From positions 1 through 7,236 of the forward strand of contig DRTT01000023.1 in the NCBI GenBank assembly GCA_011372105.1: DNA of 7,236 bases. Reading direction: 5' to 3'. The notes beneath the pieces were generated by a model that did no database searches, was not told the origin of the DNA, and saw nothing but the letters and a program-made list of their open reading frames with translations. Shown here piece after piece: positions 608 to 6,304 of this stretch (position 1 is its first letter; each line of letters opens with the position of its first letter). Made by a program: the position numbers and the translations under genes. The stretch comes from Candidatus Aerophobota bacterium (GTDB lineage Bacteria; Aerophobota; Aerophobia; Aerophobales; B3-G15).

Positions 608-623
608 CATACCTGGCTTGACG
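608..623. other. proposed IS110 left-end/host junction: guide-matched donor and target half-sites
   Basis: On the plus strand 608-616 is CATACCTGG (element side) and 617-623 is CTTGACG (host side). CATACCTGG is the same sequence as RNA segment 435-427, so that segment can pair with the minus strand of the element end. CTTGACG recurs at 538-544, in the 5' strand of the first loop of the candidate bridge RNA. The two half-sites abut without a gap. In the IS110 scheme the left junction after insertion should be left target plus start of left end, read by the left target guide and the right donor guide, and those are the two guides that match. Confidence 0.6.
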
Positions 624-803: not shown

Positions 804-2015
804 ATGATGGATACAGGTAGGAAACCACAGACAATTAAGAGAATGAACAAGGCTTTGATTTTGAGGACAATAAATAAAGAGGGAGCAATTTCCAGAGCCG
901 AACTTTCTCGTAAAACTAGCCTCTCTATGCCTACTATAATGAAAATCGTGGATGAATTAAAAGAAGAAGGTCTTATAATAGAAGCAGGAGTTGCTCCTTC
1001 AATTGGAGGAAGACCTCCAAAAGTCATAAAACTTAATCCTAAAGGAGCATATGCGATAGGAGTGAAAATTCTCCCTAATGAGCTTAGGGTAGTTGTTGCT
1101 AATTTGAGAAATAATTTTGTTGCAAGGAGAGTTGAGACTATTAGTCCTTTTAGCGGATATAGAAAGATTTTGGCTCAATTGAAAGATGCAATAAGAGAGG
1201 TGACGTATAGGAGTAGAGTGAACTTTCGTCAAATTTTGGGTATTGGTATAGGAGTGCCAGGAATTGTGAATTCTTCTTCCAATGGAAAAGTAATATTTGC
1301 TCCTAATCTAAGAGGATGGGAAAATGTCTCCCTTGCATCTGACATAGAAAAGGAATTTGATGTTCCTGTGTTTATCGAGAATGAAGCAAGAGTTAGTGCC
1401 TTGGCTGAGAAGTGGTACGGGATAGCCAGAGGTGTAGAGAATTTTGTCTGCATAGATGTAGCAGTGGGTATAGGTGCAGGTATAGTTATAGATGGAGAGT
1501 TGTATAGAGGGCATGGTAATTTGGCTGGTGAAATAGGTCACCTGGTGGTGGTAAAAAATGGACCTGTGTGCAACTGTGGTAAAAGGGGATGTTTAGAAAC
1601 TGTTGCCTCTAATACTGCAATAATCAATATGGTTAGAAATAACCCTACTTCTACAATAATGAGACTCTGTAAAGAGAGCGAAAATTCTATTACCATGAAA
1701 GAAATTATTAAGGCAGTAAAAGTTGGTGACAAAGAGTGTGAGAAATATATTAAAAGGGCAGCAGTATACTTGGGTAGAGCTATTGGTTATTTAATTAATA
1801 TAATTGATCCTGAAATGATAATAATTAATGGAGAGATAACTCTGGCTGGAGATGTATTTTTTGATCCTCTTAAAAGAGAAATAGATAAATCTGCTTTTAG
1901 AGCTGGTAAGATCTTACCAAAGATTGTTACTTCCGGTTTAGGTGAGGATGTGGGGTTAATAGGGGCCTCTTCTCTTGTAATAAGAAACATATTTAAGGGA
2001 CCTCGGAAAGTGTAG
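804..2015 (+). CDS. ROK-family transcriptional repressor (XylR/NagC type)
   Basis: This 403-residue protein has an N-terminal winged helix-turn-helix (about 10-72: ALILRTINKEGAISRAELSRKTSLSMPTI, then wing motif GGRPP at 68-72) and a ROK sugar-kinase-like domain. The ROK domain shows GIGIGVPG (146-153), a GIGAGI phosphate loop (222-227), GEIGH (242-246) and the zinc motif CNCGKRGC (C256, C258, C263 with H246). The kinase catalytic Asp of the usual ND motif is Glu in IENEAR (E194), as in repressors that sense sugars without phosphorylating them. Length is typical. Two adjacent ATGs (804, 807) have no good ribosome binding site. A later Met at residue 14 would remove part of the conserved N-terminal helix, so the upstream start is kept. 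The palindrome just upstream suggests autoregulation. The ligand is unknown; being first in a sugar operon points to a sugar. Confidence 0.93.
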   Translation: MMDTGRKPQTIKRMNKALILRTINKEGAISRAELSRKTSLSMPTIMKIVDELKEEGLIIEAGVAPSIGGRPPKVIKLNPKGAYAIGVKILPNELRVVVANLRNNFVARRVETISPFSGYRKILAQLKDAIREVTYRSRVNFRQILGIGIGVPGIVNSSSNGKVIFAPNLRGWENVSLASDIEKEFDVPVFIENEARVSALAEKWYGIARGVENFVCIDVAVGIGAGIVIDGELYRGHGNLAGEIGHLVVVKNGPVCNCGKRGCLETVASNTAIINMVRNNPTSTIMRLCKESENSITMKEIIKAVKVGDKECEKYIKRAAVYLGRAIGYLINIIDPEMIIINGEITLAGDVFFDPLKREIDKSAFRAGKILPKIVTSGLGEDVGLIGASSLVIRNIFKGPRKV

Positions 2016-2029
2016 GAAGGAGCCAAAAA

Positions 2030-2890
2030 ATGAAAATAGGACTTTTGACTAACAGTTTAGTGGCAATAGGGATAAATGAACTGGAGGAAATATTTAAATG
2101 GGCAAAAAAATCAGGTTTTCAAGCAGTGGAAATTGGACCAGGGATCTCGCTTAATTTAGAGAAACTGAGAAGACTTCAACAGGAGTATGACTTGGAAATT
2201 ACAGGTTTTATCTATATGAGAAATATACTAAGTCCTAACAAAAAAGAAAGGCAAGTTCATATTGATAGAATAAAAGAACGTATTGAAATAGCTGGAGAGT
2301 TGAGTGTGAAGTATGTCACAATGTCTACAGGAAGGGATACAAGAATCTCCTACGAGGAAAATTTGCTTCTTTTTAAAGAAGAATTTCCTCCTATTTTAAA
2401 ATATGCAGAGGAAAAAGGTGTAACTCTTGTTTTTGAAAATTGTCCTGGGATGTCAAATATTGCTATTTCTCCTCCTATGTGGAAAAAGATATTTGAGATA
2501 TTTCCCTCTTCCAACCTCGGACTTTGCTTTGATCCTTCACATCTTGTTTGGCTTCAAATTGATCCGTGTAAGGCTATTCTTGATTTTAAGGACAGGATTT
2601 GTTATGTTCACGCAAAGGATACAGAAATTCTTAGGGACAGACTGGCCTACTGGGGAATTATTACTGATCATGTATATGATGAAAAGGAAAGACAGGAATT
2701 GAGATGGTGGAGACACAGGATTCCTGGGTGGGGGGAGGTAGACTGGAAAAAAATTATAACTACTTTGATGGAGATACGTTTTGATGGAGTGATAAGCATA
2801 GAGCACGAGGATCCTGTATGGAGTGGAAGTGAAAGGAAAGTGAAAAGAGGATTGGTTTTAGCTAAGGAATATCTTAGTGGCATAATTTGA
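2030..2890 (+). CDS. sugar phosphate isomerase/epimerase-like TIM-barrel protein (AP endonuclease 2 / xylose isomerase-like)
   Basis: This 286-residue cytoplasmic protein has the length and motifs of the xylose-isomerase-like TIM-barrel superfamily. Strand 1 is MKIGLLTNSL. Probable divalent-metal and substrate residues are E136 in VFENCPG, D168 and H171 in CFDPSHLVW, H194 in YVHAKD, and E258 in ISIEHED, with IPGWGEVDW (231-239) before the last strands. Such enzymes interconvert keto/aldo sugars or epimerise them, and relatives act on 3-keto-sugars, inosose or hydroxypyruvate. The ribosome binding site GGAAGGAG lies at 2016-2023, 6 nt before ATG 2030. The gene follows the ROK stop by 14 bp and precedes a Gfo/Idh/MocA dehydrogenase by about 18 bp, a pairing that suggests dehydrogenation and epimerisation of the same sugar. 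The exact substrate cannot be told. Confidence 0.88.
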   Translation: MKIGLLTNSLVAIGINELEEIFKWAKKSGFQAVEIGPGISLNLEKLRRLQQEYDLEITGFIYMRNILSPNKKERQVHIDRIKERIEIAGELSVKYVTMSTGRDTRISYEENLLLFKEEFPPILKYAEEKGVTLVFENCPGMSNIAISPPMWKKIFEIFPSSNLGLCFDPSHLVWLQIDPCKAILDFKDRICYVHAKDTEILRDRLAYWGIITDHVYDEKERQELRWWRHRIPGWGEVDWKKIITTLMEIRFDGVISIEHEDPVWSGSERKVKRGLVLAKEYLSGII

Positions 2891-2908
2891 ATATTTTGGA
2901 GAAGGGTG

Positions 2909-3943
2909 ATGAAGTTAAGAGTTGGAATTATTGGGGCAGGTAGAATGGGTAAATTTCATCTTGATTTTCTTGAGAAGGTGGAGGAGGCGGAGATTGTAGC
3001 TATTTGCGATATAAGAAAAAACTGCGCAGAGGATCTTGCGCATAGAGTAAAAGCCAGAGTTTACACAAATTACCAGAAGATGTACGATGAGGAGGAACTT
3101 GACTGTGTTTTTATATGTACTCCTGCTCACGCAAGAGAAAGGCAACTTGAGGAGGCAGCAATAAGAGGGATACATATTTTTGTTGAAAAACCAGCAGCTC
3201 TTACTCTACAGCAGGGAGAAAAGACTTATAAGGTTATTGAAAAAAGTGGGGTCATTTGCTCAGTAGGATTTCTCTGGCGATACTCAGAAGGAGTGGAAAA
3301 GGTTAGAAATTTTTTGAAAGACAAAAAGGTAGCTCTTATTGATGCCAGGTGGTATCATACAATCCCTCCTGTGGCATGGGTGAGGTCAAAGGAAAAAGGA
3401 GGAGGGCAAATTGTCGATCAGAGTATTCACCTTATTGATTTAATGAGGTACTTGGTAGGAGAGATTCAGGAGGTATACGGAAAAGCTACGCGGGGGCTTT
3501 TTCCTGAGATATCTGATTTTACTGCAGATGACGCAAGTGCAGTTACATTAACTTTTAAAGATAAAACAGTGGCAAATCTTTCCTCCACTTACTCTTTATT
3601 TTCTGGTGCGCCACTTGGTCCAGAGATAAACATTATTGGTAAAAGAATGCTTGTGAAGATTAACTCAGATAAGGTAGAAGTTTATACCCCCTATGAAGAG
3701 GAGTTTAAATTTGATGAAAAGGCCCATCTTGCCCATATGATGAAATCTCCAAAGGCAAATATTGAACAGTTTGATATTCAGCTTACAAATGCTGCAATGA
3801 AAGAAGACGAGATTTTTTTAAAAGCGGTGATTAGCAATAACTCTTCCATAATAAGATGCGATTTCAGCGATGCTTTGGAGACCTTGAAAGTAGCTTTGGC
3901 TATTGAAAGATCTATCCATCTTGGCAAACCAGTAAGTTTATAA
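2909..3943 (+). CDS. Gfo/Idh/MocA-family NAD(P)-dependent sugar dehydrogenase
   Basis: This is a 344-residue two-domain oxidoreductase. The N-terminal Rossmann fold begins LRVGIIGAGRMGKFH (GxGxxG), with D at the end of strand 2 (AICDIRKN), which favours NAD(H). VFICTPAHAR and VEKPAAL carry the family EKP motif (catalytic Lys near residue 94). The C-terminal domain shows GGGQIVDQSIHLIDLMRYLVG, where the Asp and His (about 170 and 174) are the usual catalytic/substrate residues. The family oxidises a sugar or inositol ring hydroxyl, often at C3 of glycosides. A GTG at 2906 directly precedes ATG 2909. The GGAG at 2898-2901 is 4 nt from GTG and 7 nt from ATG, so ATG is chosen. There is no signal peptide, so it acts in the cytoplasm with the TIM-barrel protein encoded upstream. 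Confidence 0.92.
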   Translation: MKLRVGIIGAGRMGKFHLDFLEKVEEAEIVAICDIRKNCAEDLAHRVKARVYTNYQKMYDEEELDCVFICTPAHARERQLEEAAIRGIHIFVEKPAALTLQQGEKTYKVIEKSGVICSVGFLWRYSEGVEKVRNFLKDKKVALIDARWYHTIPPVAWVRSKEKGGGQIVDQSIHLIDLMRYLVGEIQEVYGKATRGLFPEISDFTADDASAVTLTFKDKTVANLSSTYSLFSGAPLGPEINIIGKRMLVKINSDKVEVYTPYEEEFKFDEKAHLAHMMKSPKANIEQFDIQLTNAAMKEDEIFLKAVISNNSSIIRCDFSDALETLKVALAIERSIHLGKPVSL

Positions 3944-3960
3944 GATACAGGAGGCATATG

Positions 3961-4950
3961 ATGGAGATTGCTCTACAAGGACAGGAGAAAAGATGGTTAG
4001 GAGTTATACCTTTGTTTAATCCACAAGAGGGGGTTACTGTTTTAAATCCTCCTGAAGCCGGAGTAGGCTACTGGGTAGGAGCTCCCAGTATTTTATATGA
4101 TAGAGAAACTTCCAAGTTCTATCTTTACTACCGGATAAGAAAGCCCCGGCCTGCCAGAGGAATAAAATGCTTTGTTGCTGAAAGCGTAGATGGAGTCAAA
4201 TTCAGTCCTATCTGGGAAGCCACCAAAGAAGAATTTCACTCTCCTTCTATAGAAAAAGCCTGTCTTGTTAAAACAAGGGATGCAAAATACAGGCTTTATA
4301 TAAGTTATGTAGATCCTGAGAGCAAGCAGTGGCGTATTGACATGATGGAAGCTTCTTCTCCAGATAAATTCAAAGTAAGCGAAAGAAAGCAAATTCTCAC
4401 AGCTTCATCAATTAAATGCGAGGGAGTGAAGGATCCTTATGTACTTATAGTAGGAGGCCAGTATTATATGATAGTAAGCTATGCTCCTACTCCTATGAAG
4501 ATAGACGAGGATTTGAAAGAAAAGATGCATATGACAGGTGATGTTTATAATACTGGCATAACCAAGTCTCATACAGGGCTTGCTTTAAGCTGTGATGGTG
4601 TAAATTTCAAGTGGTGGGGAGATATACTTTCTCCTGGTGAAAGCTGGGATGCCTATGCTTCAAGAATTAGCTGCGTTGTTTATTTACCACCGATTTTTAC
4701 AGCCTTTTATGACGGGTCTGCTTCAGTAAAGGAGAATTACGAGGAGAAAACAGGTATTGCTATAAGCTTTGATCTTTTACATTACAAGAAATTAAGTTTA
4801 GACAAACCGGAACTTGTCTCTCCTCATGCCTCTGGCTGTCTTAGATATATGGATAGCATAATTGTGGAAGACGAAATTTACTACTACTACGAATATGCAA
4901 GACCAGATGGTTCTCATGAGATAAGAATGAATAAGGTAAAGATAAAGTAA
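3961..4950 (+). CDS. cytoplasmic beta-propeller glycosidase-like protein (GH43/GH32/GH130-like fold, family uncertain)
   Basis: This is a 329-residue protein (330 if ATG 3958 is used). It shows repeated blade-like beta segments: GAPSILYDRETSKFYLYYRI (about 41-60, numbering from 3958), KYRLYISYVD, GVKDPYVLIVGGQYYMIVSY (156-175), GLALSCDGVNFKWWGD, SRISCVVYLPPIFTAFYDGSA and GIAISFDLLHY. Such aromatic-rich repeats are typical of five-bladed propeller glycosidases. E155/D159 in EGVKDP, D221 near ESWDAYASR and D242 in FYDGS are candidate acidic active-site residues, and RIRKPRPARG (59-68) recalls phosphate- or substrate-binding Arg clusters of GH130. No signal peptide is seen, so it would act on imported saccharide. 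AGGAGG at 3949-3954 is 3 nt from ATG 3958 and 6 nt from ATG 3961; the latter is preferred. A specific GH family or activity cannot be assigned by eye. Confidence 0.75.
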   Translation: MEIALQGQEKRWLGVIPLFNPQEGVTVLNPPEAGVGYWVGAPSILYDRETSKFYLYYRIRKPRPARGIKCFVAESVDGVKFSPIWEATKEEFHSPSIEKACLVKTRDAKYRLYISYVDPESKQWRIDMMEASSPDKFKVSERKQILTASSIKCEGVKDPYVLIVGGQYYMIVSYAPTPMKIDEDLKEKMHMTGDVYNTGITKSHTGLALSCDGVNFKWWGDILSPGESWDAYASRISCVVYLPPIFTAFYDGSASVKENYEEKTGIAISFDLLHYKKLSLDKPELVSPHASGCLRYMDSIIVEDEIYYYYEYARPDGSHEIRMNKVKIK

Positions 4951-4984
4951 AAAGGAGGTGATGACAGATATTTATTTATTATAA
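4951..4984 (+). promoter_or_regulatory. strong anti-16S-matching ribosome binding site with 7-residue leader frame
   Basis: AAAGGAGGTGATG (4951-4963) matches the complement of the 16S rRNA 3' end almost completely, far better than is needed, yet no gene starts at normal spacing. The only nearby start is the ATG inside it (4961), 2 nt after GGAGG, opening the frame MTDIYLL with a stop at 4982-4984. The binding-protein gene has its own site, AGGAGG (about 4999-5004), before ATG 5012. This may be a ribosome-binding or standby site, a leader peptide, or the relic of a lost gene start. Confidence 0.3.
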
Positions 4985-5011
4985 ATTATAAAAGATTAAG
5001 GAGGGTATACA

Positions 5012-6304
5012 ATGTTTTTCTTGAGAAAGGGAAAGAAAAAAATAAAAATTGTTTTATTCCTGTTGGTGGTTATGATTATTTTATTTGTAAGTAGCAGTAT
5101 AAGTGTAGGTGCTGAGAAAATAAAAATAACAGTTAGTATCGGGTCTCATGGTAGATTTCTCCTTAAAGATACTATTAAGGCATTTGAATCTGAATATCCA
5201 AATATAAAAGTAGAGCCTTTAGCAATTTCTTCTGTTCCTAATGAGGCTTTCCAAGTTTACTCAACAGCATTTGCTGCTAAAGACGGGAGTATAAATATAC
5301 TTGGTCTTGATCCATCCTGGCCGGCTTATATGGCACGTGCTGGTTGGATAGAACCACTTGATAATCTTTTAAGTCAAGAGGACATGGAAGAGGTGAAAAG
5401 AGATTTCAATAAAGAAGCTCTGGAGATTAACACCATTAAAGGCAAACTATACGCAATTCCACTTTATGCAGATGCTCTTCTTTTCTATTACAGAAAGGAC
5501 CTGCTTAACAAATGTGGATTTGAACCACCACAGACCTGGGGTGATTTGGAAAAACAGGTGACAAGTATACTTTCTGCAGAAAATGACCCTAACCTTTCCG
5601 GATATATTTATCAAGCAGCCAGGATTGAAGGAATTGTTTGTAATTATGTTAATTTCCTTTCAGGAACAGGTGGTAAAATTTTAGATGAAAATGGCAAAGT
5701 CCTGCTGGAATCTCCCGAATCTCTTGAAGCACTGAGGTTTATGACTTATATGATGAAGAAAGGGATAACTCCTTCGACTATTGTTACTCACAACCCACAT
5801 GATGATGCTATTCAATTTCAAAATGGTCAGGCTATTTTCATGAATAACTGGCCTTTTGCCATGGGTATGTTTCAAAAGGAAGGTTCTCCGATGAAAAACA
5901 AGGTAGGAATTTCCCGTATGCCTGGCAAATATGGACCCGCGGCATCCTGTATAGGTGGTGTTTCCCTTGCTATTAATCATTATTCGAAGAATAAAGATGC
6001 TGCTCTTAAGTTTGTGAGGTTTATTACAAATTATGAATGGAATAAACAAAGAGCAATAAGAAGCAGCCTCCTGCCAGCAAGAACTATGGTATATGAGGAT
6101 CCTGAGGTTCTTTCTGCTAATCCGTCTTTTAACGAGATTAAAAAGGGAGCAAAGTATCTTACTTCACGTCCCAAGACAGAAAAATATCTGGAGATCTCCT
6201 ATGTACTCCAACTTCACCTTAATCAGGCATTACTGAGTATTGAGACTCCTGAAGAAGCTTTACATAGAGCAGCAGAGAAGATAAGAGAAATTTTAAGTGA
6301 ATAG
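5012..6304 (+). CDS. ABC transporter extracellular sugar-binding protein (SBP family 1)
   Basis: This 430-residue secreted receptor delivers a sugar to the permease encoded next. The N-terminus has a basic stretch (RKGKKKIK), a hydrophobic core (about 13-30) and a likely signal peptidase I site after A34 (SVGA-EK). No cysteine follows, so it is not a lipoprotein. The mature part has the maltose/trehalose-binding-protein layout: KIKITVSIG strand 1, AFESEYPNIKVE (57-68), NILGLDPSWPAYMARAGWIEPLDNLL (95-120), KLYAIPLYADALLFYYRKDLL (145-165) and PPQTWGDLE (172-180). C-terminal helices resemble those that close the two lobes, and length is normal. AGGAGG 8 nt before ATG 5012 fixes the start. The substrate is probably a glucoside or oligosaccharide, by family resemblance only. 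A stem-loop follows the stop, which may raise its level over the permeases. Confidence 0.93.
   Translation: MFFLRKGKKKIKIVLFLLVVMIILFVSSSISVGAEKIKITVSIGSHGRFLLKDTIKAFESEYPNIKVEPLAISSVPNEAFQVYSTAFAAKDGSINILGLDPSWPAYMARAGWIEPLDNLLSQEDMEEVKRDFNKEALEINTIKGKLYAIPLYADALLFYYRKDLLNKCGFEPPQTWGDLEKQVTSILSAENDPNLSGYIYQAARIEGIVCNYVNFLSGTGGKILDENGKVLLESPESLEALRFMTYMMKKGITPSTIVTHNPHDDAIQFQNGQAIFMNNWPFAMGMFQKEGSPMKNKVGISRMPGKYGPAASCIGGVSLAINHYSKNKDAALKFVRFITNYEWNKQRAIRSSLLPARTMVYEDPEVLSANPSFNEIKKGAKYLTSRPKTEKYLEISYVLQLHLNQALLSIETPEEALHRAAEKIREILSE

Follow-up and report, generated by a model that had tools for sequence, protein, structure and literature searches.

In insertion sequences of the IS1111 and IS110 type, an RNA from a long noncoding region of the element, the seekRNA, guides the choice of target (PMC11187229). 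For IS621, a member of the IS110 group, the core dinucleotide is described as included in each guide pairing (PMC11208160), and a handshake guide base and a promoter formed across the joint of right end and left end have been reported (PMC11208158); in IS621 and close orthologues the core is CT, with a nearly invariant second base T (PMC11208160, PMC11208158). We analysed a stretch of 7,236 nucleotides (the window, meaning that whole stretch), with element coordinates given on its minus strand. Very likely, an IS110-group insertion sequence has inserted here, with its left junction in the window and, in its left end, a bridge RNA of two internal loops, which the transposase would use on a target like CGTCAAGC-CA-TTCAGAAT. 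The mechanism is already known, and the element is a divergent new example of it. One junction of an incomplete element from an uncultured lineage is thus enough to read a bridge-RNA guide code, and the same reading in relatives leads to repeated targets in their genomes.

The element in the window

Within the window, the element is represented by its left end and the first 130 codons of its transposase gene, the right end lying beyond. Positions 1-390, cut by the window edge, encode the N-terminal 130 residues of an IS110-type DEDD transposase, which match PF01548 (E 2.1e-9, 37.8 bits, cut-off 29) and contain all of D10, E63, D105 and D108; homologues also carry PF02371, and in the window protein the C-terminal Tnp domain, which bears the catalytic serine in the IS110 group, would lie past the edge. 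Against NF033542 (transpos_IS110) the fragment scores 25.8 bits (E 5.4e-6), below the curated cut-off of 140 bits, as are the scores of the full-length homologues P0003 (129.2 bits) and P0004 (122.6 bits). Single-sequence scans of genome and viral contig collections returned no relative, an alignment search and a 26-base RNA pattern matched nothing among viral contigs, and plasmid records gave no match to the fragment; 659 plasmid records matched P0003, every one at below 60% identity. Rfam gave no match to the window at gathering thresholds.

The noncoding stretch upstream of the transposase gene has a strong predicted fold (z -4.67 for 616-395, z -3.89 for 576-408) and would encode a bridge RNA with two internal loops. 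The target-binding stem-loop of this putative RNA (479-568) is drawn from predicted folds and from stem arms that pair in five elements, namely that of the window and the four relatives described below (L001-L004). It is followed by a donor-binding stem-loop (413-478), a member of our donor-loop RNA model R1, whose stem (CCCUACGG/CCGUAGGG) forms eight of eight pairs. The outer stems and a GGC/GCC stem pair in all five elements, and the stem arms differ in sequence between the window, L001 and L002. Scanning with the donor-loop model gave matches in 3 of 17 genomes and, with stricter filters, in 1 of 149, all four already known.

In the target loop, the left target guide (CGUCAAGU-CA, 535-544) pairs over 10 nucleotides with 623-614, one pair being a wobble, and a putative right target guide (AUUCUGAA-UG, 503-512), whose distance from the GCC stem is that seen in L002 and L001, predicts CA-TTCAGAAT. 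In the donor loop, alignment with L001-L004 places a putative left donor guide (UAGAUUGU-UG, 451-460), which predicts a right end TAGATTGT; the right donor guide CAUACC-UG-G (427-435; six donor bases, the core and one handshake target base) complements 616-608. Thus, the window shows the arrangement of the IS110 group, with a two-loop RNA in the left end upstream of the gene, a left target guide that pairs with the left flank and a right donor guide that pairs with the left end. An RNA placed after the gene, in the right end, would mark the IS1111 group; that of the window and of L001-L004 precedes the gene. If the enzyme works as that of IS621 does, it would use the bridge RNA to recombine a circular form of the element with its target. 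In the circle, the promoter halves TTGACA (right end) and TATAAT (L001) or TAACAT (L002) would stand 17 bases apart; the window contains the -10-like half only, TAAAAT at 606-601, the position of those two hexamers.

The junction itself was read from two matches made in the initial annotation, and both stand. Minus-strand 616-608 (CCAGGTATG) complements RNA 435-427, the two stretches forming a perfect inverted repeat (427-435/608-616), and CGTCAAG at 623-617 equals RNA 544-538, identity being 90% over 10 nucleotides. Beyond CGUCAAG the RNA has UCA and the DNA CCA; the guide's partner is the bottom strand, so that a U where the top strand has C makes a U.G wobble. In all, 10 nucleotides pair, one of them by wobble, the 11th base upstream being unpaired. 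The half-sites had been said to abut exactly. Instead they overlap: the target guide is three bases longer (CGUCAAGUCA/CGTCAAGCCA, one wobble), and its last three nucleotides fall inside the nine-nucleotide donor match, with CCA common to both. Overlap rather than abutment is expected because the core dinucleotide belongs to each guide pairing in the published scheme.

Aligned to L001-L004, the window would have its core, CA, at 615-614, the position of TG in those elements, and the element proper would start with GGTATG (613-608), which complements RNA 435-430. The left target in the flank is then CGTCAAGC (616-623), in a register taken from the same alignment, and the nine-nucleotide match would consist of six donor bases, two core bases and one target base. 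The assignment agrees with three guides: the left target guide ends in CA, and UG occupies the core position of both right-hand guides, target and donor. Against it stands the left donor guide, whose UG fits CA by two wobbles only. The G that follows the core complement in the donor guide pairs with 616, the last target base, which is C in the window and in L001-L004; by analogy, this G may play the role of the IS621 handshake guide. A matching base in the target loop fits in L001 and not in L002. The predicted full target is CGTCAAGC-CA-TTCAGAAT, and the predicted right end closes with TAGATTGT. Among 17 genomes of the related phylum, a set that does not include the host, this target had no exact match and two one-mismatch matches, as many as the control. 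Nor did a right end, a second copy or an empty site of the window element turn up in the searches.

Between 626 and about 731, the flank is similar to a repeat of genome G017, in five places at 85-88% over 84-101 bases and in a sixth at 73%, as well as one place in G014 (84% over 69 bases). The G017 likeness ends at 626, two bases short of the left target, where the letters of G017 differ. One copy of the repeat precedes an ORF with a weak, below-cut-off match to an ISL3 zinc ribbon, and the window element may sit in or beside another insertion sequence. For the host genes at 2898-4937, G018 has a syntenic pair with 69% DNA identity; the host is therefore probably related to Aerophobetes. The syntenic operon in G018 contained no empty site for the window element.

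Three further observations concern the surroundings. Positions 804-6304 form a sugar-use operon, with a ROK regulator, then ORFs that by eye resemble a sugar isomerase, an oxidoreductase and a glycosidase, and a solute-binding protein, in part syntenic with contig 134 of G018 (L077). A perfect 12-base inverted repeat (TTACTTAGTAAA/TTTACTAAGTAA) at 760-784, before the ROK regulator gene (804-2015), is a possible operator. On the minus strand at 727-738, GTCAAGCAAGGT agrees with GTCAAGCCAGGT of the left junction at 11 of 12 bases and overlaps a plus-strand TTGACA, which may be chance.

Guides and unoccupied sites of related elements

Homologue alignment gave four loci, three from Candidatus Aerophobetes (L001, L003 and L004) and one from Candidatus Eremiobacterota (L002). 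Each begins at its left end with CTGGGTATG, CTGGCTATC or CTGAGTATG, where the window has CCAGGTATG, and continues with target loop, donor loop and gene. The initial annotation had proposed aligning the flanks and left ends of several copies and finding an empty site. Applied to these relatives, both checks came out in its favour: the four left ends start at homologous sequence and their flanks follow each element's own guide, most weakly in L001 (six of eight left-target bases), and unoccupied sites put the boundaries of L002 and L001 at the homologous left end. The IS110 reading of the guides is thereby well supported.

All four guides can be compared with both junctions in L002 and L001, in which the left donor guide also matches the right end and the right target guide the right flank. 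In L002, the left flank is identical to the left target guide UUGUCAUUC-UG (11/11), and ATAGGAAGT-TG in the right end to the left donor guide (11/11); the right donor guide complements TG-AGTATG (8/8) and the right target guide TG-AGCGGA (8/9). TG is the dinucleotide that all four cover in register. The same contig also has an unoccupied copy of the target, with which the joined flanks share 93.6% identity in a 188-base alignment that spans the join; from DNA alone, this alignment leaves the exchange point ambiguous within TGAG. Several copies of a repeat with GTCATTCTGAGCG surround the element at 5545-8480 of this locus, one of them being the unoccupied target.

The junctions of L001 are GAGACCTC-TG-GGTATG on the left and ATAGAACGA-CG-AAAAAG on the right. 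Among the left target guides, that of L001 fits least well, two of the eight left-target bases being unpaired; the left donor guide agrees with the last 11 bases at 10 positions and by one wobble, and the nine-base right target guide has seven exact pairs, one wobble and one mismatch. Unoccupied sites occur in the related genome G003, where the copy on contig 40 has 20 identical bases across the join (TAGAGACCTCTGAAAAAGTC) and 80% identity over query bases 61-140. L001 has the TG of the unoccupied target as its left core and, in contrast, CG as its right core, which is how two of its guides read. Such a pattern would be expected of a top-strand exchange 3' of the core, with the target supplying the left core and the donor the right one.

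We compared each guide with its own eight-base left target, the register being fixed by the relatives, in six elements: that of the window, L001-L004 (the L003 transposase has stops, and L004 is cut by a contig end) and the more distant L042, which has a like guide pattern and a CT core, its guides having been picked by eye after the match was seen, so that its 10/10 is not independent. Altogether, 44 of 48 left-target positions pair, the permutation mean is 29.2, and 4 of 720 permutations reach 44, L001, L003 and L004 being closely related and nearly interchangeable in this test. With one Aerophobetes relative (window, L001, L002 and L042), no other among the 24 permutations scores as high as the true pairing. 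The window guide pairs with eight of eight left-target bases, which 2.3e-4 of 400,000 random 8-mers from the fetched loci and the window match; the fraction of random 8-mers that pair as well as the true left target is 3.9e-4 for L002, 3.9e-4 for L042, 0.007 for L004, 0.008 for L003 and 0.031 for L001. These fractions apply to a register set by the relatives; in the initial annotation the register was freely chosen, and the odds behind its statement that the adjoining matches would be rare by chance were weaker.

Three other loci lie outside this set. Nothing was recognised in the upstream region of L022, and L009 was read for its right end and left out. The right end of L013 fits the L004 guides in part, with several wobbles and a core mismatch, and is perhaps the other half of the L004 element.

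Alternative readings and the core dinucleotide

The nine-nucleotide complement could instead be merely an RNA stem that closes the left-end transcript, with CGTCAAG a chance repeat and no guide code at all. Consistent with a stem, the minimum-energy fold of 616-395 pairs CCAGGUAUG with CAUACCUGG, that is, the two nine-nucleotide stretches with each other. However, a stem leaves the 10-nucleotide target-guide match unexplained, the same loop strand in L001-L004 sits in an internal loop and faces the left end, and unoccupied sites place the boundary of L002 and L001 at that end; we regard this explanation as very unlikely. It is also highly improbable that the left boundary lies further in, so that the element would not start with GGTATGTTAAAATATATTG and CCAGGTATGTTAAAAT would be part of the flank repeat, the ISL3-like repeat of G017. 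Copies in G017 do have TATGTTAAAAT 17 bases (C170, C62) or 16 bases (C104) after the last shared block, and in the window these 11 bases follow at a distance of 14. Yet the likeness of the window to the IS110 left ends of its relatives continues past CCAGGTATGTTAAAAT (TATGTTAWAATATA) and includes CCAGG, which is complementary to the guide and absent from G017. The stretches in the window and in G017 both look like what we take to be extended -10 promoter elements, which can explain their likeness.

Where the guide scheme is accepted and the element starts at the junction, the register can still be drawn as in the initial annotation, with a core CC at 616-615 and half-sites meeting at 617/616, where the exact seven- and nine-nucleotide matches do meet. 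We consider this register unlikely: all four L002 guides cover TG in register, the right junction of L001 and the unoccupied site differ at the first base of the same two positions (CG versus TG), and the right target guide of the window has UG, not GG, at the core position. With the core at 615-614, the CT of IS621, with T as its second base, is found neither in the window, where alignment points to CA, nor in L001-L004, which have TG. On balance we lean towards an IS110 subgroup with a pyrimidine-purine core step in place of CT, in which both bases of the relatives' TG are replaced in the window, giving CA, and three guides (left target, right target and right donor) have changed to match; such natural reprogramming would extend to the core base near-invariant in IS621. 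If the core assignment is true, this subgroup offers natural recombinases whose core is not CT and in which even the second core base has changed. The non-CT core may be the one unusual feature of the element.

Target sites and known systems

From the left flanks and right target guides of L001, L003 and L004 we built the motif RAGANCTCYGAAAAA, which matched 20 times in G003, the genome of L003, 14 times in G004, that of L004, twice in G001 and once in G002; the reversed control had no match in any of the four. Many of these matches are copies of the same repeats, so that the counts are not independent events, and as a prediction for L003 and L004 the motif counts for its AAAAA half only, since their left flanks entered it. 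By eye, the N position is C at 17, G at two and T at one of the G003 sites, and the L003 guide has U there, which pairs with T and wobbles with C; at the G004 sites it is G in 12 and C in two, and the L004 guide has G.

We read 20 loci among the 37 motif matches, two of these loci overlapping. At 14 of the 20, other loci share what follows the site but not what comes before, and some of the sites are paired in inverted orientation at a distance of about 200 bases. The sites look like the outer tips of repeated mobile elements, and the L001 target is followed by a transposase that has DUF772 and DDE domains. Hence, the ends of other mobile elements seem to be where IS110 elements of these Aerophobetes relatives insert; similarly, IS4321 and IS5075 of the IS1111 group insert into the terminal inverted repeats of other transposons. 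In the same loci (L109-L128), several repeat families of G003 and G004 have GAGANCTCTGAAAAA at their tips, and those of its copies that form inverted pairs about 200 bases apart resemble small non-autonomous elements.

Among the systems compared, seekRNA elements of the IS110 type have the RNA upstream of the gene, as here, and those of the IS1111 type differ in having it downstream, with the guide order reversed (PMC11187229). The likeness to IS621 covers a DEDD transposase, an RNA upstream of the gene with a target loop and then a donor loop, guides on the same strands and sides with the core inside them, a handshake base, a joint-spanning promoter (in L001 and L002) and insertion into repeats (PMC11208160, PMC11208158). 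In contrast to IS621, whose protein chain is 328 amino acids, the transposase here is longer and divergent (homologues P0003, 461 amino acids, and P0004, 412), and the core is TG or, as we read the window, CA rather than CT.
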